Shown here: positions 1 to 10,763 of the stretch, piece by piece
Position numbering within the stretch: position 1 is the first letter of the stretch
Layout of the letters: each line of letters opens with the position of its first letter
DNA from: Pirellulales bacterium
GTDB lineage: Bacteria > Planctomycetota > Planctomycetia > Pirellulales > Lacipirellulaceae
Direction: 5' to 3'
NCBI GenBank assembly: GCA_020849945.1
Contig: JADZFK010000227.1
Location: 1 to 39,426 of the forward strand
DNA: 39,426 nucleotides
Position numbers and translations under genes: made by a program
Notes under the pieces: model-generated
The model's input: only the letters and a program-made list of their open reading frames with translations
What the model was told of the DNA's origin: nothing
Databases searched by the model: none

Positions 1-261
1 GGCGATCCCCCGCTGCGAGCCGAGACCCTCGAAGTACCCCACCAGCAGCATCCGGAAGTAGACGCCCGGCGGAATCCCGGGGCGGCCCATGGTGCCGTGA
101 TAGTACGGCTCGCACAGCGACTCGACGAACGCATCGAAGCCCGCTTCTCGCAGCAACTCGTTGAGCTTGCGGTAGAAGACATGCCCTTCCGAACGCGGCA
201 ACTCGTCGGCCGCGATCCAGAACGACGTCTGCTGCTCCTGGTTGCGGTGACCCAACGCCAT
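1..261 (-). CDS. Transposase, N-terminal part (DUF772 / IS1182-like), cut by window edge
   Basis: Reading leftward from the ATG at 261, 87 codons stay open to the window edge. The translation begins MALGHRNQEQQTSFWIAADE and contains GRPGIPPGVYFRMLL followed by GYFEGLGSQRGIA. This is the conserved N-terminal block of DUF772-type transposases of the IS5/IS1182 group, which lies before the DDE catalytic domain. The catalytic residues are beyond the window, so activity cannot be judged. The upstream 170 bases carry a likely element end near 374-396, about 35 bases past the 3' end of the neighbouring membrane-protein gene. Family-level call is firm; the exact IS family is a recollection of similar proteins. 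Confidence 0.85.
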   Translation of the reverse strand, partial: MALGHRNQEQQTSFWIAADELPRSEGHVFYRKLNELLREAGFDAFVESLCEPYYHGTMGRPGIPPGVYFRMLLVGYFEGLGSQRGIA

Positions 262-373
262 CACGAATCCTCCTCAATTCGACTTCGCGGATGCCTCAGC
301 AATCCAACCAACCACGGCATCCGCTGGCAACAATTTAGCGCCACGCCGTCACGAAGGAAAGACCACCCCAAGA

Positions 374-396
374 GACTTTTTCAACAGGCTGTTAAG
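374..396. mobile_element. Probable terminal inverted repeat of the insertion sequence
   Basis: The stretch contains TTTTTCAACAGGCTGTTAAG, a form often seen at the tips of transposons of this kind, and lies upstream of the transposase start at 261. If correct, the element runs from before base 1 to about here. The other end and any target duplication are outside the window. Confidence 0.5.
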
Positions 397-432: not shown

Positions 433-2688
433 CTAATTTTCGCCGCGGCCGCCGCGCGCCCTGCCACCTCCCCGTGGCGGTCGGAAGCCGGGGCCTCCCT
501 CCATCATGCCGCCTTCCATGCCGGGCATGCCATATTTCTCTTTCGTAAACAGTTGACGGTGGTACTCAACATCCATCTGGTCATCAAGCTCATTCCGAAT
601 ATAAAGCTCGCCGGATGGCCCCATCAGCAGGACCCGACCGGGGGCATTGTAATCCTTCGATAGCTTATCCCCGCCATCGGCGTCGAGCATCGTCATGCCC
701 GTGACGAATCGAAACGCTTCGCGCGTGTCAATCGCCAGGGGGGCCGTCACAAGATACTCGACCTTTTCAACCATGTTCGCCACGTTGCCTCGCCGCAGCT
801 CCTTCTCGATGGCGGCTTGAATTGCATTGCCTTCATCGTCGGTATCGAACGAATGGACCAACAGCGTGGCCGTCGGCTCGTCATTAAACTTTTCATCGGA
901 AGCCGCCTTTACCTGCGCCAATTGCGCGCCGCCACCCAGCGGAATCCCGACGGTCGGGCTCGGGTCGCTCCAGCCTTCGATGCGTCGGAAATCGGGCATC
1001 GGTTGTTTCTTGGCGCGGGCAGCCTGAGCTTCCGTTCGCTGCCGATCGAGCACACTGGCGGCCAGCACGTTGGCCGGTAGCCCAACGTTCGGGTCTCCGA
1101 GCACCAGGGTTACGCGATACTTGTACTTCTTACCAGGTTCCACAGTGAAATCAAAAAATCGTAGCAGCAGATGATCGACGCCCTTCGGCAAACTTGTCCG
1201 CGCCGTGGCAGCGCCGGGCATGGCCCCGCCTCCGCCGTAACCGGGGCCGCCTTCCATCTCGCCACGACCTCCCATCATTCCGCCGCCAAAACGACCCGCC
1301 ATGCCATAACCCGGCCCGCCCATGCTCCCGGGGCCTCCGCCGAATCGGCCGGGGCCACCCATCATCGCGCCATATTCGCCCATGCCCATGCGACCGGCCC
1401 CAGGCCCCGCGCCCGGGCGCATCCCAGGTACCATGCCGGGCATGACTCCTGGCCCTGCGGCACCTGGTGCCGCTGCCGAAAAGGGCGAGGTCTCTCCACC
1501 TTCGGTCGGCTGCGACGGCGAGCCGGCGGCCGGAACTTCGGGCATCGTTTCCTCTTCCAGCGGCGGCGTATCGGCAATTAAGGGGATGTCTGGATGGGTC
1601 GCTTCAGCGCCCCAGTTGCGCCCCACGAGCGGCGGCAGGGGGAACGTTAGAACGTAGTCGAAAAATCGCTGATCGATGACATCCGGCGCCATCCCTGCCC
1701 AAAATTGGCTAGCGGCCGTATAGAGATTCGTCATGATCGTCGTTGCCACGGCCGACGAGTGAAGCGGCTTATTCGCCCGGATGGACTGCCGCTGGCCCTC
1801 ATACACGGGCACGGGTTTCCACTCCAGTTCCTTGCCCGGCACGACCTCGGCCCGCTGCACGAGGAAACCCTTGTATTGTGGGAAGTCGCGCATGGGGTCG
1901 AAGCCCAATTTGGCGTTTTCAAAGGCATCTTGGTAAAGCTTCAATTGATCGCGGATCGGTACCTTGGCCGTCACAATCGCCCAGTACGCTTGTTCGATAC
2001 GTTCACCTCCTTGTAGTGGAACGCCTAGGGCAGTTGTCATGTTGGTGATCTGACGGCGCTTGGGATGATTCGGGTCGAAAGGTTCTTGGCCCATGCTGAA
2101 CTCGCCTTCTCCGCGTGGCCCGCCGGGGCCAAGGTTCCGACGCCCTCCCGCCCCTTCACCCGCGCGATTGGGCGGATTGTTGGCCTCGCGTTCCGCGCGA
2201 TCCTGTTCTTTCTTCGCGGCTTCCGCCGCTTCTTTCACGCGTTGCAATTCTTGCTTCTTGCGGATCGACTCGTCGATGAACGCGAAGAGGCCCGAGCCTC
2301 CGGTCGCGCGCACGTCCACCGCGTTGAGCAGCACCGGATCGGTGCGACGCACGGCAGGCGCGATGACGGGCTGATCCATCTGCGCCGAAGCGTAGGACGC
2401 GGGGTCGACCGCCGTATCCGCCTTGATATCGAGCGGTTTGGATGGTTTGACCTCTGCCGCTAGTTCGTTACCGGGTTCGGGCCAGTGGGCATCGCGCACG
2501 GCGGCGGATGTTTCGGTGATGACGTTATGAAGTTTCTCGGGCTTGTACTTTTCATCGAGTCGCGGGAGGGCTGTCGTTTTGTAGAGCAACCACACCACGA
2601 CAAATCCCACGAGCGCGATCGCGGCCTTCTCGCCGTGCTTGAGCAGCAGCCCTTTGATGCCACCTAATCCCTTCAGATTGCCAGACAT
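433..2688 (-). CDS. Single-pass membrane protein with Gly/Met/Pro-rich linker, pilus-platform neighbour
   Basis: A 751-residue protein. The ATG at 2688 is preceded by AGGAG at good spacing. Residues about 22-40 form one membrane segment (AAIALVGFVVVWLLY) after a short Lys-containing cytoplasmic end, so most of the chain is probably outside the cytoplasmic membrane. Residues about 140-175 are charged and helix-prone (KKQELQRVKEAAEAAKKEQD). Residues about 400-500 are a low-complexity linker of Gly, Met, Pro and Arg. The flanking regions look folded. The C-terminus is again Gly/Arg-rich. It is the third gene of a leftward series starting with a PilM-PilN-like fusion, so a role in an inner-membrane pilus or secretion platform is inferred from context only. 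I do not recognise its family. Confidence 0.75.
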   Translation of the reverse strand: MSGNLKGLGGIKGLLLKHGEKAAIALVGFVVVWLLYKTTALPRLDEKYKPEKLHNVITETSAAVRDAHWPEPGNELAAEVKPSKPLDIKADTAVDPASYASAQMDQPVIAPAVRRTDPVLLNAVDVRATGGSGLFAFIDESIRKKQELQRVKEAAEAAKKEQDRAEREANNPPNRAGEGAGGRRNLGPGGPRGEGEFSMGQEPFDPNHPKRRQITNMTTALGVPLQGGERIEQAYWAIVTAKVPIRDQLKLYQDAFENAKLGFDPMRDFPQYKGFLVQRAEVVPGKELEWKPVPVYEGQRQSIRANKPLHSSAVATTIMTNLYTAASQFWAGMAPDVIDQRFFDYVLTFPLPPLVGRNWGAEATHPDIPLIADTPPLEEETMPEVPAAGSPSQPTEGGETSPFSAAAPGAAGPGVMPGMVPGMRPGAGPGAGRMGMGEYGAMMGGPGRFGGGPGSMGGPGYGMAGRFGGGMMGGRGEMEGGPGYGGGGAMPGAATARTSLPKGVDHLLLRFFDFTVEPGKKYKYRVTLVLGDPNVGLPANVLAASVLDRQRTEAQAARAKKQPMPDFRRIEGWSDPSPTVGIPLGGGAQLAQVKAASDEKFNDEPTATLLVHSFDTDDEGNAIQAAIEKELRRGNVANMVEKVEYLVTAPLAIDTREAFRFVTGMTMLDADGGDKLSKDYNAPGRVLLMGPSGELYIRNELDDQMDVEYHRQLFTKEKYGMPGMEGGMMEGGPGFRPPRGGGRARGGRGEN

Positions 2689-2860
2689 TTGCTAAACTCC
2701 TAATTCGCGTTATGCACCTGCGCCCGTGGCGAAGCACCAACCTACTCGAATGACGATGGATAACGGCATGTTAAATAAGCCCTTGCAGCTCGTTCGACCT
2801 CTAGGAAGACTCGTTGTTAGCTCATCGTTTGATCGGCGTTTCTCTTCCACGATCCGAGCC

Positions 2861-3036
2861 CTCACTCCTAATTCCATATCTTCCGGCTCCCTCCCCTCGG
2901 TGGGGAGGGGAGATTTGTTGGCAGTTCCGCGCTCCGCTCTGCGTCGCGGCTAAACACTCAACCCATACTCAACATCCGTTCCGCAACTCACTCCTCACTC
3001 CTCACTCCTCGCAACTCGCAACTCGCAACTCGCAAC
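2861..3036. repeat. Dispersed repeat R1, copy a (inverted partner at 10533-10693)
   Basis: This intergenic stretch between the two Gly/Met-rich protein genes matches the reverse complement of 10533-10693. Shared blocks include CTAATTCCATA, GGCTCCCTCCCCTCGGTGG, TTGGCAGTTCCGCGCTCCGC and GGCTAAACACTCAACCCA. It ends in short tandem runs: CACTCCT repeats, then four CGCAACT-type units. It encodes nothing evident and fills most of a 352-base gap. Confidence 0.85.
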
Positions 3037-3040
3037 TCCA

Positions 3041-4654
3041 TTACAGCTGCGCCGTGGCCGCCCCAGCAGTTGGTTCGGCGGGTTGCTCCAAGCTATTCAG
3101 GTTTGGTTTGTTGTAGAGATAGATCGTACCTTGAATGACGACGTTCTTCACATGCGGTTGCAAATTGAACTGCTGAATTCCGGTTCGATCGGGGAATGGG
3201 CTGGCCTGCCCGCCGGCACCGCCCATGCCGGGGCCGCCGAAGCCGCGTTCGCCGCCGAAGCCTCCGAAGCCAGGGCCGCCGCCGCCGCCCGCTTCCATTC
3301 CTGCCAACCCAGGTGGGTTGATTCGAACTTCTTGCACTTCGACCCGCAACGGTTGGCTTCCGCAGATCGCGATGAAATGCTGGAGCCAGCGCACATCCAC
3401 TTGCATGACCATGCGGACGGGCAAACGCTTGTACCCTTTGCCGAACAGGCTCAGGTCGAGCGGGGGTGCCGGTGCGGCGAGAGCCGCTGGGTCTGCTGGT
3501 ACCGGTCCCGGGCCCATCGGTCCTTCGCCACTTGCCTCGCCGCCGGCCGAACCGACCGCAATTGGCAAGCCTTTATCGTCTAGATAGCGCCACGAAAGCA
3601 GGGCCGTTTGTTCTTGTGCCGGGGTCATCGCGGTTTGGCCGCCGCCCGGGCCAAAGCCCCCTTCCATGCCGCGCATGCCACCTGGCCCGCTCATTCCTGG
3701 CGGGCCGCCCATTCCCGGAGGAGCCCCCGGCATTCCTCCTGGGCCAGCGGCACCTGCTTCGCCTTCCACACCAGGGGCCGCCGCTGCCACGGGCGGGGCG
3801 ATCAAGAGCCGCCCCGGCTGACGGCTATACTGAGCCGCCCGCTGCCCAACCTCCAACGAATAAACGACCTTCACCGCGGCGTTCGACATTCGGGTTGCCC
3901 CCGCCGCGCTGTTTGTTTTGGCGATCACATCGAGCAAGGCATGGTAGACCCACAGGTCTTCTTGCGTCACCCAAATACGCAACGAGGAAGGCCGTTGAGG
4001 GAAATTCAATTCGTCGCGAATGTACTGTTGATCCAACCACTCGCAGATGTAATCGTCGTCGGGAACCATCCCGGGCATTGCGCCGGGCACGCCGCCGGGC
4101 ATTGCACCGGGCATGGCCCCTGGCAAACCGCCCTCCAAACCGGCCCCATAACCGGGTCGTCCCAGCTCTCCGCCAGCACCGGTCGTGGCGTTGATATCGA
4201 GCGGACGCGCGCCAATCTTTTTGGGCAATTCGGGAAAGTGCTGCTCGATGTAGTTCTGGTAGTTATTTCGCAAGGGGGTCGGAATTTCATCGTTGAATTG
4301 CAGCTTCTCGATCGTATTCCGAAAATCCTGGCTCAGTGCGGTGGGCCATTTCAATGCTTGTTCTCGTTGGCGATCGTACACGCTACGCCAAATCTCGGCC
4401 ACGTTCGCTAACTGTTTCTTGTTTTCCTCGGCTTGCCGGGTATTGATGGGTTCATTGGGGTGGAATGAAGCATTCCTCACCCCTTGAACATTGTTGAATT
4501 CGTCGGTGATTGTTTTTTGGTTGGCTTGGTAAGCCGCACTCGTTTTTTGCGTTGCCATCCACCAGCAGCCGATGGGGATCAGCGCAACCAAACCGGAAAG
4601 CACCCAGAAATGGTGCTGCTTCAGCCAGGCCAGCGCGACGCGTATTTGGTCCAT
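3041..4654 (-). CDS. Single-pass membrane protein with Gly/Pro/Met-rich linkers, pilus-platform neighbour
   Basis: A 537-residue protein starting at the ATG at 4654. Residues about 16-35 (FWVLSGLVALIPIGCWWMA) are the only clear membrane segment. The topology (short cytoplasmic tail, one helix, long outer part) resembles PilO-type partners of PilM/PilN, but I see no diagnostic PilO signature. Three low-complexity linkers rich in Gly, Pro and Met (near residues 165-190, 295-345 and 455-490) separate segments that look folded. It lies 267 bases downstream of the PilM-PilN-like gene and 352 bases upstream of another protein of the same design. Both gaps hold dispersed repeats. A shared envelope complex is an inference from order and architecture. 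Confidence 0.75.
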   Translation of the reverse strand: MDQIRVALAWLKQHHFWVLSGLVALIPIGCWWMATQKTSAAYQANQKTITDEFNNVQGVRNASFHPNEPINTRQAEENKKQLANVAEIWRSVYDRQREQALKWPTALSQDFRNTIEKLQFNDEIPTPLRNNYQNYIEQHFPELPKKIGARPLDINATTGAGGELGRPGYGAGLEGGLPGAMPGAMPGGVPGAMPGMVPDDDYICEWLDQQYIRDELNFPQRPSSLRIWVTQEDLWVYHALLDVIAKTNSAAGATRMSNAAVKVVYSLEVGQRAAQYSRQPGRLLIAPPVAAAAPGVEGEAGAAGPGGMPGAPPGMGGPPGMSGPGGMRGMEGGFGPGGGQTAMTPAQEQTALLSWRYLDDKGLPIAVGSAGGEASGEGPMGPGPVPADPAALAAPAPPLDLSLFGKGYKRLPVRMVMQVDVRWLQHFIAICGSQPLRVEVQEVRINPPGLAGMEAGGGGGPGFGGFGGERGFGGPGMGGAGGQASPFPDRTGIQQFNLQPHVKNVVIQGTIYLYNKPNLNSLEQPAEPTAGAATAQL

Positions 4655-4698
4655 ATTTCTCGAATCCTATCTACGACTCTTCAATCCCAATTATCTGA

Positions 4699-4776
4699 GG
4701 GTGCCTGGGAAATGGAACCGCCTTCAGGCCCCGGCAAAGCCGGGGGATGTGCATCCAATTTCCGAGCACTCTCAAG
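4699..4776. repeat. Dispersed palindromic repeat R3, single-core copy (reverse orientation)
   Basis: The core CCCCGGCAAAGCCGGGGG forms a hairpin. The flanks (GGAAATGGAACCGCC on one side, ATCCAATTTCCGAGCACT on the other) match, on the opposite strand, the flanks of the copies at 27743-27867, 30040-30217 and 33369-33478. It lies in the gap between the PilM-PilN-like gene and the next gene of that series, where it could act as a transcript-stabilising or attenuating hairpin. Confidence 0.8.
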
Positions 4777-4921
4777 TATCTAAAACGTTGACGAAACGCG
4801 ACCTTTCTTCGACAGGAACACAGGGCTTCGCCAATTCTTTGAATGGATTCCAACCCCTTGCACCTTCGTGTGGGGCATGCGTATTTCTTCCAGAGCCAAA
4901 CGGCTCCGGTTACCGATGCAG

Positions 4922-7426
4922 TTACGAACTTGGCTCGGTGGTTGCGGGTTCGGTGGTGGTTGCCGCCGTCCCGGCGGGGGCGGTTTCAGCAGGCGGGGGC
5001 GGCGCGGGGCCGGTTGACGCGGGGGTCGTACCGGTCGGGGCGGTTTCGATGGCGGGCGGTACGGCGGGGGCCTCGCCCGTGGGCGAGGAAGCGGCCGCTG
5101 GAGAAGCGATCGGTTGGGCCTCGGCGGTAGCGGGAGCCGTTGCCGGTTCCGTTGCCGTCGCGTCGGTTGCAACCTCGCCTTGAGGAGCGGGAGCCTTTTC
5201 CTTTGCCGCCAACTTCAACATGCGTTCGGTGCGTGGCTTGGGTTGCCAGCAAAACTGGACGACGAAATCGTATTGACGGAGCTTGAATGTTTTTGGTAAT
5301 TGCTCGCCCGCCGCGCCTGTGCCGTAAGGCAAACCGCCGGCTTCCTCGCCCATGCCTCGCGGGCCCATTGCCATGCCGGCGGGGCCGATGCCGCCCGTGG
5401 CCGTCGCGTCCATGGCCTCGGCCATGTAGGTAACGGTCTTTACCTTTTCGCTCGTCACCACGACGGGATACTGAACGCCAAGTTCCGAGATTGGCATCTC
5501 GATGAGCTTGCCGCTCGGGCCATCGGGTAGCATCACCTTTCCCTCTTCCAGGTGTTTGATCAGCGTGTTGCGAACGAACTGCTCGCCCTCGTCCCCCACG
5601 TCGATTTTTGAATTGGGTGGGTTGTTGTGCAGGTGGAAGCCTTTGATTTCAATGACCCACCCGCCGGCTGCCAAACCGGTGCCGGTCGCGCCGTCAGCCG
5701 GTGGCGGCGCATTGGGATCGGTTCCCACCGTGGCCGATGGATCAAGAGGAGGTGCTCCGGCGGGATCGGCTGGCGGAGCGGCTGCGGAGGGGTCGGCAGG
5801 GGGCGAGGCGTTGGGGTCGGTAGGCGCGGAACCATCGCTGGGCGATGCACCCGGCTTTTGCGTTAAGTTGGCGGCAACGCTCGTGTGCCACGGCGTCAGA
5901 TCGGCAAAGTACTCGCAGTCTACCGAATCGATGTGTAACTCGTTTCGCTTGGCGATGTCCTCTTCCGTTTCTTGCCGTTCGGCTGCCGGGCGGGGGTCTT
6001 TCGGCAACGAAGCATCGAGCGCCTTCAACAGTTCCAACCACAAGAGCCGACCTTCCACGTTGCTTTGCAGGCTGTTGCCCACCTCGTTGATTGCATCGAA
6101 CTTTGTTTTGAGTTCGGAGAGTTCCCCTTCAAATCGCTTTGCTTCGGAAACCGCGTTCTTGGCGGCGGAGAGTTCGCGAGCCATCGCGGGGGCGGCCACG
6201 TCGGCGGTCATCAGCGCCGAGTAGTGGCCAAAGTAATTGATCGTCAATCCAAGCAGCAACAGTGCGGCGGCCCCCACGGCCCACGGCTTCTTCGCCTTGA
6301 CCAAACGCGTTGTAACGATTTCCTCGGGAAGCAGATTCGTGCGGAGCTGCGAGTTGCCCAACGCTTGCACGCACAAGCCGTACGCCACGCCGAAGGTCGG
6401 CTGATTTTCTTTGAACTGCGGTCCGGCAACCGCCGTGCCGCCAACCAGGTTGTTGAACTGGTCGATGAGCTTGACCTCTTGATCGAGGTTCTGCGAAAGG
6501 AATCGCTGAAGGCCGGGCAGCTTCATGGGGTTGCCAAGGGCGACCATATCGCCCAACTTGGCGTTGCGGTTGTTGCTTGTAAAGAAGCCGATCGAGCGTT
6601 GAATTTCGGCGACCAGATCGCTGAACACGGGCCGCATCGCTTGGAAGACGGCCTTCGGGTTCTCGGCCTTCATTGCATTTCGCTTCAGATGCTCGGCCTT
6701 GGCGAACGTGAGTTTGAGTTCTTTCGTTAGCGATTTGGTGAAGTGGTTGCCGCCGATCGGGATGCTGCGTTGCCACACGCGATACCCATTCGTAATCACC
6801 AGGTCGGTCGTGTCGGTCCCCAGCGAGATGATCACGGTTGAAGGCGGGGGATTCGAGGGATCGTATGGACCCGATATCTGAAGCCGGTCGTAGCAAATGA
6901 AGTTGTAAATGGCGAGCGGCGCGAGTTGGATAATCTCCACCGCGATACCGGCCGATTCGAGCGGTTTTAGGTGCCTCGCCACCTGGTCGCGTTTCATGGC
7001 GAACAAACCGACTTCGGTTTCGAGCGCGTACCCTTCTTCTTCGTTGCCGATCAGCGGTTGATAATCCCACACCACGTCTTCGAGCGCGAAGGGGATTTGC
7101 TGGCGAGCCTCGTACTTGACGATGTCCGGTATTTTCTTTCGCTCGACGGGCGGTAGCTTGATGAACCGCGCCAAGCCGCTTTGGCCCGGAACGGCCACCG
7201 CCACGCTTTCGCCCGCGATGTCGTTTCGCGAAACGAACAGTTCCAGCGCTTCGCGGACCAACTCGTCGCGATTTGCCTCGGGCTGCGTGAGAATCTTGGG
7301 GTATTCGATATAATCAAAGGCTTCGACAACCATGCGGCTGTCGTCCTTTTCGTGCGGCCGACAGCGGAGCGCCTTCAGCGCGCACTGGCCGATATCGATG
7401 CCCCAAACGGCGTTGCTCTTCGCCAT
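4922..7426 (-). CDS. pilM: PilM-PilN-like fusion, type IV pilus / secretion inner-membrane platform
   Basis: I chose the ATG at 7426 (834 residues); AGAGG lies 9 bases upstream, and an in-frame TTG 6 bases earlier is less likely. Residues about 5-345 are a PilM domain, an actin-like ATPase fold: the phosphate-1 loop is WGIDIGQCALKAL, the second is SLGTDTTDLV, and VALGNPMKLPGLQRFL closes the fold. After a basic stretch, residues about 381-400 make one membrane helix. A coiled-coil segment follows (SAAKNAVSEAKRFEGELSEL), the layout of PilN. PilM and PilN are normally separate, and PilM binds the PilN N-terminus, so the fusion makes sense structurally. Residues about 555-600 and the last 80 are Pro/Ala/Thr-rich. 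PilM and helix are clear; the PilN assignment is inferred. Confidence 0.85.
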   Translation of the reverse strand: MAKSNAVWGIDIGQCALKALRCRPHEKDDSRMVVEAFDYIEYPKILTQPEANRDELVREALELFVSRNDIAGESVAVAVPGQSGLARFIKLPPVERKKIPDIVKYEARQQIPFALEDVVWDYQPLIGNEEEGYALETEVGLFAMKRDQVARHLKPLESAGIAVEIIQLAPLAIYNFICYDRLQISGPYDPSNPPPSTVIISLGTDTTDLVITNGYRVWQRSIPIGGNHFTKSLTKELKLTFAKAEHLKRNAMKAENPKAVFQAMRPVFSDLVAEIQRSIGFFTSNNRNAKLGDMVALGNPMKLPGLQRFLSQNLDQEVKLIDQFNNLVGGTAVAGPQFKENQPTFGVAYGLCVQALGNSQLRTNLLPEEIVTTRLVKAKKPWAVGAAALLLLGLTINYFGHYSALMTADVAAPAMARELSAAKNAVSEAKRFEGELSELKTKFDAINEVGNSLQSNVEGRLLWLELLKALDASLPKDPRPAAERQETEEDIAKRNELHIDSVDCEYFADLTPWHTSVAANLTQKPGASPSDGSAPTDPNASPPADPSAAAPPADPAGAPPLDPSATVGTDPNAPPPADGATGTGLAAGGWVIEIKGFHLHNNPPNSKIDVGDEGEQFVRNTLIKHLEEGKVMLPDGPSGKLIEMPISELGVQYPVVVTSEKVKTVTYMAEAMDATATGGIGPAGMAMGPRGMGEEAGGLPYGTGAAGEQLPKTFKLRQYDFVVQFCWQPKPRTERMLKLAAKEKAPAPQGEVATDATATEPATAPATAEAQPIASPAAASSPTGEAPAVPPAIETAPTGTTPASTGPAPPPPAETAPAGTAATTTEPATTEPSS

Positions 7427-7846
7427 AACCAAGAACCTCTATTCCTCAAAACCGCCCAACTCTCGAATGCGGGCAGCTGCCTCGTGATTGCGAATCGTAG
7501 TTGCGCAGTCGCCAACGACCCATTCAGCGCGGGACATGGAACGGCGCGCGAAGCACGGCCATTCCTATCCATTGTACTGAAAAGACGTTATGACTAGCGA
7601 TGCACGTCCCAATGCATGCGTACCCGGGCATCTGAAATGCCCGATATCCTCCATTCTACTCGTTGTTTTTCTCTTGAATAGCAACTTCCCTGGCGGCTCG
7701 GGCAATCTGCCGAGGACTTTGGCCCGGCCGTTGCCGCGCCGACCCCCGAATGGGATTCGGCCGAAAGCCAGAAATGTCTTCCCGGATCGAGAAGAAACGC
7801 GGCACGGCTTTCGCCGTAACGTGTGGGGAAATATAATGTTACGGCA
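7427..7846. other. Divergent intergenic region with small hairpin and -10-like boxes
   Basis: This 420-base gap separates the leftward pilM-type gene from the rightward GH38-like gene. No convincing gene is seen. A perfect 7-bp hairpin (CGGGCAT, loop CTGAA, ATGCCCG) lies at about 7625-7643. TACAAT on the minus strand at 7571-7576 could be a -10 box for pilM, but no good -35 box accompanies it. TATAAT on the plus strand at 7832-7837 lies ten bases before the ATG at 7847. Confidence 0.5.
7832..7837 (+). promoter_or_regulatory. TATAAT -10-like box just before the GH38-like gene
   Basis: The hexamer matches the sigma-70 consensus exactly and ends nine bases before the ATG at 7847. The start would then lie within a few bases of the transcription start, giving a leaderless mRNA. 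No clear -35 box is visible 16-18 bases upstream, so chance is quite possible. Confidence 0.3.
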
Positions 7847-10534
7847 ATGGCTATCTACAAAACATCGTTGATTCTGCCCTGCCAGGGTTGGGATGACTTC
7901 CCAACCCACCTGGACGATGACTCTTCGGCTGAAATCCTTGCGGGTTGGACTTCGTTGTGGCATCCGAGCCTGATTGCCGCCACGAAAGGGGTACCCGGGG
8001 CGTTGGCCGCCACCAACTTGCCCGGGCCCGAGGAGATGGCGGATCACCTCGTGGTGGCCCCGAAGGCAAGCCGGCAGATCATGCCCAGCGATTGGTGCGA
8101 CCGCGTGCGCGAGGTTGGCCCGGCGGGGCCGTGGCCCGTCGAGCCGACGACCTCGCGAGCTTCGACCTTGGTGGCCACGTTGGCCGCGGCCTCGGTTGCT
8201 CACTTGCCACTGGATGTCGAAACGACCGCCGATTTTTTCGCGCTTGGGTTCGCGTACTTGCAGGTGGAGTTACTTACGAAGGCGATGCGTTACACCTCGG
8301 TGCTGGATACGGCCCAGTTTGAAGCGGCGGTGGTTGCCGCCGCGAAAGAAGCCGTTGCCGGTCGAAACCAACCGGCCCACGAAGAGCTGGCAAGGGCCTT
8401 TGATCTCCTTGCCGATACGCGAAATCATGCCTACGCCGTGGATTACTACGCGATCGACCTCGCGCTGCTCGCCGACGCAACGCTGGGCGAAGCACTTCGA
8501 ACACGACTGGCCGGCAGCGGGCCAACGAACCTCCTCATCACCGGCCAGCAACTGGAACGATTGGCGCAACAGCCTGAAACGCTTGCCGCGTTGCGAGCCG
8601 CGCTGGATGCTGGTACGGTTTCGTTGGTGGGGGGTAAGTATCGGCATGAACCCTTTTCGCATGTCGGTCCTGAAGGCCTGCTCGCGGACCTGCGCGGTGG
8701 CCAGGAGGTTGCCCAGCGTTTGCTGGGGCACAAGTACGAGGTGTACGGCCAGTTTGATTCGGCGTTCACGATCCTGTTGCCCGCGGTGCTTCGCGGATTG
8801 GGATATCGAGGCGCATTGCATGCCGCATTTGATGGCGGAAAATTGCCTCGCCCCGAACAACGAAAGACGAATTGGGGAGCCGATACCGACGCCTCGATCG
8901 AGACCCTTGCCGTGATGCCCTTGGATGCCGCGCGGCCAAGCGTTTGGCTCTTGCTGGCCGAGCGTGTGGCCGACACGATCGCGCGCGACCATGTGGCAAC
9001 GATTCTGCTGGCCAGTTGGCCGGGCGCGGAAGCGGAGTCATTCGGCGATTTGCGTCGAGCGGCGAAGTTCAACAACGTTCTCGGCAAATTGGTGACGTTG
9101 GAGGAGTACTTTGAAATCACACGCGAGGTAGACGATTGGATTCACTTCCGCCCGAGCGAATACCCGAATCGAACGATCGGCTCGACGTCTTGCCCTGCCG
9201 ATTCAGTTTCCTCGCAGGTGGAAGGGTATCGGAGCGATGCGCGGGGCGTGTATCGCCGCGTTGCGGCCGGGTTATCGGCCCTCGCTGGTTTTTCCGTGCA
9301 AGACGGCAACGGATGTGCGACCAACGACCGGCCGGAGCCGTGCGTGGTGATGAACCCGTGGAACTTCTCGCAATCGTACCTGATAGGAATGAACCCCTTG
9401 GCTCGTGGTGGCGATTTCGCCCTTTCCGCCGAACTGGATGCACCTTCGCGGACTGCCAATCTGCAGGTTACGCACGTGCAAGAGGTGCCGGGGTGCGGGT
9501 TTCGCAAGGTGCCGAGAGAAGTGACGGCACCCGCCGCTGTTGGAGCCGCCCAATCTGCTCGGCTGGCGGAAGGGCTGACGCTGCGCAACGAACACTTGGA
9601 AGTGTCCATCTCTCCGAAGTCTGGCGGCATTCAATCGATTCGAACCCATCGCGATCGCGGTACGCGAGTTTCGCAGCGGCTTGTGTTTCGTTCGGGAGTG
9701 GTTGCTGAAGACGGCGAATCGCAAATGGTTGCCGAACGAGTCGAGATCACGCGGAACGATTCGTCGATGGGCGAAATTACTTCGCGTGGCAATGTGCTCG
9801 ATGCGAAAGGGGAATTGCACTCTCATTTCGTTCAGCGCGTTCGAGTGATCCGCGGTTTGGCGCCGATCGTGGTCGAAGTGGAGTTGGAACCGCGTCGCCT
9901 GCCCGAGGGGGCGATCTGGGACTCGTATTTCGCTAGCCGCCTGGCTTGGCGCGACGATGCGTTTGCCGTGCGACGCGGGCTGGAATGGACGGCCTGCCAA
10001 GCGGCCCACGAACGGATCGAGTCCGTCGAATGGGTTGAGATCGACGATGCCCTGGGCCGCATCACATGCCTGGCACTCGGGTTGCCATTTCATCGCCGCG
10101 TGGCGAGCAATCGACTCGATTCGTTGCTCTTGGTAGAGGGCGAATCGGTTCGGCGGTTTCAGTTTGGGCTTGGCCTGAATCTGAAGTACCCGACTCAAAC
10201 AGCCCTCGAGTTGCTATTTGCGGGCGAGCCGTGTTTTGCCGAAATGCGAACGCGTTGCACGGAGGCGGCGGGGTGGCTCGTGCATGTGGGAGCACGCAAC
10301 GTGTTGATAACGCATCTCGAACCGCTGGCCAAGGAAGGCTCAGGGGTTCGCGTTCGGTTGCGCGAAACCGAAGGCGTTGATACGCAAACCGTTCTCACGG
10401 CCTTCCGACCTTTTCGCTCGGCCCGCATTACCGATTTTCGGGGGGAGCGGCTTGAAGTATTATCAGTAGTGGAAGGAAGTGCCCAGGTAGATCTCGGGCC
10501 GGGGCGTTGGATCCAGGTTGAAGCAGAATGGTGA
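7847..10534 (+). CDS. Large GH38-like (alpha-mannosidase superfamily) carbohydrate-active protein
   Basis: 895 residues from the ATG at 7847; an in-frame GTG at 7823 would add eight. Residues about 180-420 resemble the N-terminal domain of GH38/GH57-type enzymes: TNLLITGQQLERLAQQPE, then ALRAALDAGTVSLVGGKY, then YGQFDSAFTILLPAVL with LGYRGALHAAFDGG. Residues about 580-620 (LRNEHLEVSISPKSGGIQSI) resemble the start of the C-terminal beta-rich domain of alpha-mannosidases. No signal peptide is visible, so the protein is probably cytoplasmic. I could not pin down the nucleophile aspartate with confidence, so the enzyme may be divergent or inactive. It stands alone, divergent from the pilus-type genes, and repeat R1b begins at its stop codon. 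Confidence 0.6.
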   Translation: MAIYKTSLILPCQGWDDFPTHLDDDSSAEILAGWTSLWHPSLIAATKGVPGALAATNLPGPEEMADHLVVAPKASRQIMPSDWCDRVREVGPAGPWPVEPTTSRASTLVATLAAASVAHLPLDVETTADFFALGFAYLQVELLTKAMRYTSVLDTAQFEAAVVAAAKEAVAGRNQPAHEELARAFDLLADTRNHAYAVDYYAIDLALLADATLGEALRTRLAGSGPTNLLITGQQLERLAQQPETLAALRAALDAGTVSLVGGKYRHEPFSHVGPEGLLADLRGGQEVAQRLLGHKYEVYGQFDSAFTILLPAVLRGLGYRGALHAAFDGGKLPRPEQRKTNWGADTDASIETLAVMPLDAARPSVWLLLAERVADTIARDHVATILLASWPGAEAESFGDLRRAAKFNNVLGKLVTLEEYFEITREVDDWIHFRPSEYPNRTIGSTSCPADSVSSQVEGYRSDARGVYRRVAAGLSALAGFSVQDGNGCATNDRPEPCVVMNPWNFSQSYLIGMNPLARGGDFALSAELDAPSRTANLQVTHVQEVPGCGFRKVPREVTAPAAVGAAQSARLAEGLTLRNEHLEVSISPKSGGIQSIRTHRDRGTRVSQRLVFRSGVVAEDGESQMVAERVEITRNDSSMGEITSRGNVLDAKGELHSHFVQRVRVIRGLAPIVVEVELEPRRLPEGAIWDSYFASRLAWRDDAFAVRRGLEWTACQAAHERIESVEWVEIDDALGRITCLALGLPFHRRVASNRLDSLLLVEGESVRRFQFGLGLNLKYPTQTALELLFAGEPCFAEMRTRCTEAAGWLVHVGARNVLITHLEPLAKEGSGVRVRLRETEGVDTQTVLTAFRPFRSARITDFRGERLEVLSVVEGSAQVDLGPGRWIQVEAEW

Positions 10535-10693
10535 GGAGTGAGTTGTGAGTTGTGTGGGGCGGAACGAATGTTGAGTGTGGGTTGAGTGTTTAGCCTCGAC
10601 GCGGAGCGGAGCGCGGAACTGCCAACGGATATCCCCTCCCCAGCCCTCTCCACCGAGGGGAGGGAGCCTGAAGTTATGGAATTAGGGGTGCGG
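10533..10693. repeat. Dispersed repeat R1, copy b (inverted partner of 2861-3036)
   Basis: Its reverse complement follows copy a closely over about 165 bases, with a small insertion near the CCTCCCC run. It starts at the stop codon of the GH38-like gene and occupies over half of the 308-base gap before cmk. No coding potential is apparent. Confidence 0.85.
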
Positions 10694-10736: not shown

Positions 10737-10763
10737 TAGCACGGACTGAAGTCCGTGCCACGA
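10737..10763. repeat. Short palindromic repeat R4 (GCACGGACTGAAGTCCGTGC)
   Basis: Perfect inverted arms GCACGGACT and AGTCCGTGC form a hairpin with a tiny loop, followed by CACG. Related sequence occurs at 33851-33923 (TACGGAC...GTCCGTA, and CTGAAGTCCGTGCCACG). It lies about 80 bases before the cmk start. Confidence 0.75.

Follow-up and report, generated by a model that had tools for sequence, protein, structure and literature searches.

What machine, if any, do three long open reading frames near one end of this planctomycete contig encode, when one of them joins an actin-like PilM domain to what appears to be PilN? The window, by which we mean the whole stretch of DNA analysed, is a contig of 39.4 kb (C227) from a genome of 4.09 Mb in 265 contigs that is 93% complete. 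The earlier note had read the locus as a PilM-PilN-like fusion with two one-helix partners carrying low-complexity linkers, which could be divergent PilO and PilP or parts of a lineage-specific envelope machine, with no pilin, pilB, pilC or pilQ gene nearby. The three reading frames, all on the minus strand, fill positions 433-7426, and the main features of this end of the window are as follows:

1..394, minus strand: end of an insertion sequence (transposase N-terminus, PF05598/DUF772) at the contig edge, where relatives have a secretin gene
433..2688, minus strand: P0003, 751 aa, the protein in the PilP/GspC place, with a membrane helix at residues 23-41 (from position, conservation and predicted model)
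3041..4654, minus strand: P0002, 537 aa, PilO/Amuc_1100-like protein with a membrane helix at residues 16-34 and a core at residues 224-514 (predicted model)
4922..7426, minus strand: P0001, the PilM-PilN fusion, 834 aa from the ATG at 7426, above cut-off for PF11104 and TIGR01175

Counted from an in-frame TTG at 7432, upstream of this ATG, the reading frame of P0001 spans 4922-7432 and 836 aa; because of the alignment with relatives, we set the start at ATG 7426. P0001 was found in 56 of the 59 relatives searched, and because all 20 of the loci that we picked from these matches hold the same three genes in the same order, the trio is not a chance arrangement. On the other side of the trio, a divergent upstream gene (window 7823-10534, plus strand) gave no Pfam match at 1e-5; G001, a genome of the same genus, conserves this gene, and the copy there shows a weak match to glycosyl hydrolase family 38.

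P0001, the only PilM of the genome, could be divided as follows (residues in 836-aa numbering):

6353..7426, minus strand: actin-like PilM domain, residues 3-360
6326..6337, minus strand: 'NLLP' motif, the peptide with which the PilN N-terminus binds PilM and which here belongs to the PilM chain itself, residues 366-369
6227..6283, minus strand: single membrane helix past the PilM domain, residues 384-402 (hydropathy)
5198..6226, minus strand: putative PilN-like periplasmic part, made of conserved stretches and a Pro/Ala-rich insert

The PilM assignment comes from two models, PF11104 (121 bits, cut-off 27) and TIGR01175 (145.9, cut-off 133), and the model NF045709 (Amuc_1101_fam) spans residues 3-478, past the end of PilM, with 231 bits. 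When a profile of P0001 built from 21 relatives (alignment A3) was compared with the engineered PilM-PilN chain 5eou, the alignment continued from the end of PilM into the NLLP peptide of PilN; a relaxed form of this motif is present in 20 of the 21 relatives and in 62 of a wider set of 80, being absent from the other 18. Hydropathy places one hydrophobic segment just past PilM (384-402) and a further one within the PilM domain. Two elements of an alignment complex are thus present in one chain, the actin-like PilM and the PilN peptide followed by a membrane helix, and the fusion proposed by the earlier note is borne out. The periplasmic part is conserved among relatives (alignment A5); its profile did not match a PilN structure in the PDB, but it is weakly similar to the PilO family when the three trio families are compared with each other (hhalign, 25%). 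None of the 21 relatives per trio family matched Pfam PilN, PilO or PilP. Joining PilM- and PilN-type parts in one chain is in itself not new, given that GspL of type II secretion is a counterpart of PilM plus PilN (PMC4471445). As a separate observation, many relatives encode, in addition to the trio, a second, distant PilM-like protein (e.g. G049:C10:1655661-1656620), which is absent from the source genome.

P0002 had no Pfam match of its own, and no family recurred meaningfully among its 21 relatives; the NCBIfam model Amuc_1100_fam weakly matched 11 of the 21 (best E 7.8e-4), with the window protein itself at 13.5 bits (cut-off 180), and one relative weakly matched GspM (E 0.13). The fold was more informative. 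For an AlphaFold2 model from 21 sequences (pLDDT 69, pTM 0.62), the first 14 of 20 Foldseek matches were all PilO or Amuc_1100 structures (E 0.096-0.70). In VIA-align, the same model superposed on Amuc_1100 6lad_F with Z 10.9 (176 residues, 6.8 Å), in two further Amuc_1100 alignments with Z 10.1 (163 residues, 3.6 Å) and Z 9.9 (167 residues, 3.7 Å), and on PilO 2rjz with Z 6.5 (96 residues, 3.3 Å). Going by the predicted model, P0002 is a PilO/Amuc_1100-type protein.

P0003 is the least conventional of the three, and the predicted model divides it as follows:

937..2337, minus strand: predicted FN3-like domain with long insertions, residues 118-584
1201..1524, minus strand: Gly/Met-rich linker within the FN3-like domain, residues 389-496 (pLDDT <50, composition)
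547..930, minus strand: predicted second, C-terminal beta domain, residues 587-714

Neither Pfam (with relatives included) nor NCBIfam matched it, and its profile found nothing useful in the PDB. A model from 73 sequences (pLDDT 75.9, pTM 0.69) gave, in its best eight VIA-align rows, Z 6.1-6.9 over 91-103 residues at rmsd 2.5-3.0, and these Z values, below 8, are at a level that suggests FN3 likeness. We take the matched structures to be FN3-bearing chains (neogenin, contactin, LAR and cytokine-receptor domains), with a muscle filament chain in the sixth row. A distant relative of 312 aa in the same place (L212), which lacks the long linker, was matched to FN3 structures in four of its five PDB matches (best E 0.0021); it shares the membrane-anchor stretch with P0003 (hhalign 57%), and for ten deep relatives the comparison with the P0003 family gave 99.7% over its C-terminal half. 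In the model, then, P0003 looks like an FN3 domain that a Gly/Met linker interrupts. The matches listed for its fold included neither PilP nor GspC. PilP proteins carry a lipoprotein signal; P0003 has none, and because its N-terminus is a membrane helix without a cysteine, we do not file it as PilP.

These results bear on the two partners as the earlier note described them. A single strongly hydrophobic segment lies close to the N-terminus of each (16-34 in P0002, 23-41 in P0003, by hydropathy), and composition confirms the Gly/Pro/Ala/Met linkers, so the one-helix description with low-complexity linkers stands. The proposal that they are divergent PilO and PilP was upheld in part: both sit in the PilO and PilP places and P0002 has a PilO-like model, but P0003 is FN3-like and is not recognisable as PilP. 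The single-protein structure predictions that the earlier note had suggested split in the same way, with P0002 resembling PilO/Amuc_1100 and P0003 resembling FN3 and not PilP. Across the P0003 family, length (486-858 aa) and Gly content (6-19%) vary widely (n=73). We considered the Gly/Met linkers as the functional core and rejected this, since they vary and shrink in relatives.

Conservation of the locus was followed at two depths. For gene-order counts we kept the 80 best of 506 candidate relatives among GTDB genomes; P0002 is the next gene in all 57 of these loci with at least 3 kb downstream and P0003 follows in all 51 with at least 6 kb downstream. The synteny check named in the earlier note thus came out in favour of a conserved trio, in these informative loci as in the 20 loci above. 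Across the phylum, a PilMN profile matched 166 of 195 genomes, and 20 loci taken from these contain the fusion in every case, an FN3-like gene in 17 and a PilO-like gene detectable by HMM in nine. In the 17, the PilMN and FN3-like genes enclose a single middle gene; as a group, the middle genes of the ten deepest (395-486 aa) are homologous to P0002 (hhalign 98.6%, E 6.9e-16), compared with 0.2-3.7% against the other three families. The remaining three loci have the fusion, then one or two short reading frames, then a secretin. Read from sequence, the order of the trio is that of the classical pilMNOPQ with M and N fused.

What should follow in such an order is the secretin. A secretin of 1119-1556 aa lies directly downstream of the trio in 14 of the 20 relative loci and is not adjacent in six; in the best-80 set it lies at most 739 bp downstream in 27 of 49 loci and is not adjacent in 22. 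All 12 genomes searched have one, next to the trio or elsewhere. In G001 the gene after P0003 encodes a 1328-aa secretin, and its ortholog in the source genome is on another contig (C126; 68% identity over 1013 aa), where synteny ends ~170 bp upstream of the secretin. At the edge of the window, positions 1-394 match PF05598/DUF772 with 23.4 bits (cut-off 23.1), and this element is repeated on C11, C21 and C172. An insertion sequence at a contig end fits two origins of the split between trio and secretin, a genuine rearrangement and an error of metagenome assembly, and we admit either. The absence of PilQ, which the earlier note had treated as a feature of the system, is therefore not one: a giant secretin is the usual next gene in relatives, and the source ortholog lies past an IS-associated break. 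The nearest NCBIfam models to such secretins are PilQ, GspD and MshL, all below cut-off, and their C-termini match Amuc_1098_fam with 48.9-55.1 bits (cut-off 750). We also observed short repeats of 25-31 bp (97-100%) at window 2927-2957, 10586-10616 and 10739-10763 that recur on C126 just upstream of the secretin (L073 5206-5322).

Motor genes are likewise encoded away from the window. C227 was free of matches when the whole genome was searched for secretins, PilB-type ATPases, PilC and prepilin peptidases, and to that extent the statement that no pilB, pilC or pilQ lies nearby held; the genome does, however, encode PilB, PilT, PilC, a prepilin and prepilin peptidase elsewhere. C92 carries pilB, pilT and the start of a second pilB (pilB2), whose end lies on C150 together with pilC and a prepilin; prepilin peptidase genes were located on C97 and C135. 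Secretin and motor are both encoded in the source genome, and the idea of a platform that lacks them was rejected. The order pilB-pilT-pilB2-pilC-prepilins was found in all three genomes examined (G001, G034 and G014); in this conserved cluster two PilB-type ATPases flank PilT (L191 3717-11605, L189 2464-10159, L192 5392-12985). In G034 the motor cluster lies ~20 kb from the trio, past the secretin and on the same strand. Among 12 genomes with trio and pilT on one contig, the two are more than 100 kb apart in nine and close in three (the contigs of G035 and G024 are short), and because these three belong to one genus, the closeness may reflect one event. Co-occurrence of trio and PilT tests little, since PilT is nearly universal (194 of 195 phylum genomes). 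Looking for the trio together with pilB, pilC and pilQ, as the earlier note had advised, thus gave a secretin in 12 of 12 genomes and the motor cluster in three of three, but also one exception: G037 (99% complete) has a secretin and pilT, on contigs C48 and C52, with the PilMN fusion undetected and no trio genes beside the secretin.

Because of the PilM domain, the fused PilN peptide and membrane helix, the PilO-like P0002, the M/N-O-P-(Q) gene order and the motor genes in the genome, we conclude that the trio very probably forms the PilM-N-O-P part of a type IV pilus machine, its alignment complex in the inner membrane. Type II secretion offers the closest competing identity, that of a GspL-GspM-GspC platform for protein export without a pilus: GspL itself is a chain of PilM plus PilN type (PMC4471445), the single-pass partners are shared, and GspD and PilQ models fit the secretins about equally well. 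P0001, however, exceeds the PilM cut-off and its sequence goes to PilM rather than GspL, no GspL or GspM family matched P0001-P0003 at E 1, and G034 has pilB-pilT-pilC near its trio and secretin. Type II genes, moreover, form a cluster of their own in the source genome: C121 encodes E, F, pseudopilin-type reading frames, K (a T2SSK match) and two reading frames at the positions of L and M, and a further secretin, encoded on C117, contains five Secretin_N stretches; we consider the export reading very unlikely. (On C121, L074 813-3310, the L- and M-place reading frames were assigned by position and had no Pfam match.) We find it barely credible that the trio forms a pilus-free envelope scaffold specific to the lineage, for instance an FtsA/MreB-like cytoskeletal anchor: the actin-like domain does match FtsA and MreB, if more weakly, as is expected of any PilM, yet the PilM score is far higher, the neighbours are PilO-like and secretin genes, and the gene order is phylum-wide.

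If the trio is a type IV pilus alignment complex, then, by analogy to PilMNOPQ systems, P0001 would form a cytoplasmic PilM ring with the PilB/PilT ATPases and the PilC platform as its docking partners, and its fused PilN part would span the membrane and pair with P0002 as PilN does with PilO. P0003, on the same analogy, would extend across the periplasm and reach the giant secretin encoded on C126 at its N-terminal domains, and the whole complex would couple pilus extension and retraction to the outer-membrane pore. The fusion may provide a permanent PilM:PilN link, as in type II GspL. Because the Gly/Met linkers are strongly variable and shrunken in some relatives, we suggest that they act as spacers.

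Compared with the PilMNOPQ of type IVa pili (Myxococcus, Pseudomonas, Thermus), the planctomycete system shares the PilM domain, NLLP, the PilO fold, the M-N-O-P-Q order and genomic PilB/PilT/PilC, but has M and N fused, an FN3-like single-pass protein in the PilP place and a secretin that is often unlinked. A nearer parallel is Amuc_1098-1102/MUL2 of Akkermansia muciniphila, which has the same parts in the same order: a PilM-type protein longer than PilM, the Amuc_1100 fold, Amuc_1099 and a long secretin. The Akkermansia order 1101-1100-1099-1098, which equals that of the planctomycete loci, is deduced from locus-tag numbers (in the accessible part of PMC5332112). The products of this cluster are abundant in Akkermansia membrane fractions (PMC5332112), and the PilQ has been located to the outer membrane (PMC4960237). 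The relationship is remote, planctomycete scores being far under the NCBIfam equivalog cut-offs (231 against 650 for Amuc_1101); the planctomycete trio has Gly/Met linkers, no Amuc_1102-like pilin gene was recognised beside it, and the secretin in the planctomycete loci (1119-1556 aa, 14 loci) is larger than the 907 residues given for Akkermansia (PMC4960237). With conservation across the phylum and this resemblance to Amuc_1101-1100-1099-1098, the idea of a lineage-specific envelope machine falls away. The much-studied Amuc_1100 comes from the Akkermansia locus to which fold and gene order tie the trio, and this link suggests for Amuc_1100 a structural role of the PilO type.

A different question is what the pilus would do. 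One answer, which concerns role and is compatible with the identity of the parts as an alignment complex, is that the machine serves mainly for polysaccharide capture and periplasmic uptake via the giant secretin, at crateriform structures, and not for motility or DNA uptake. The MUL2 part 1099-1102 has been tied to glycan attachment and uptake in Akkermansia (PMC13174399), and the machine is phylum-wide. Crateriform structures join outer and inner membrane and bear 12-nm pili-like fibres that bind gold-dextran, planctomycete uptake is halted by CCCP, and the accessible text of the same source calls the whole-polysaccharide uptake system 'still to be characterized' (PMC5394234); crateriform structures have also been likened to type IV pili before (PMC8303584). 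Against this, no gene was linked to crateriform structures in the literature surveyed, the locus has no recognised substrate-binding protein, and a triple pilQ deletion mutant of P. limnophila exists and is described, in the accessible portion of its source, without an uptake phenotype (PMC11958385). We therefore regard an uptake role as possible but doubtful.

Tentatively, and with similar reserve, we speculate that the PilMN-PilO-FN3 complex and the giant secretin might underlie the crateriform structures genetically, together with the pili-like fibres on them, as a retractile pilus that draws polysaccharides through the oversized secretin into the periplasm; it might be an ancestral PVC device, of which MUL2 would be one branch, with FN3 replacing PilP. 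We found no description of the trio in Planctomycetes in the open-licence PMC literature, and it seems that the machine type is known while this version is apparently undescribed in the phylum. The trio provides concrete, phylum-wide conserved genes for a putative envelope-spanning retractile machine.
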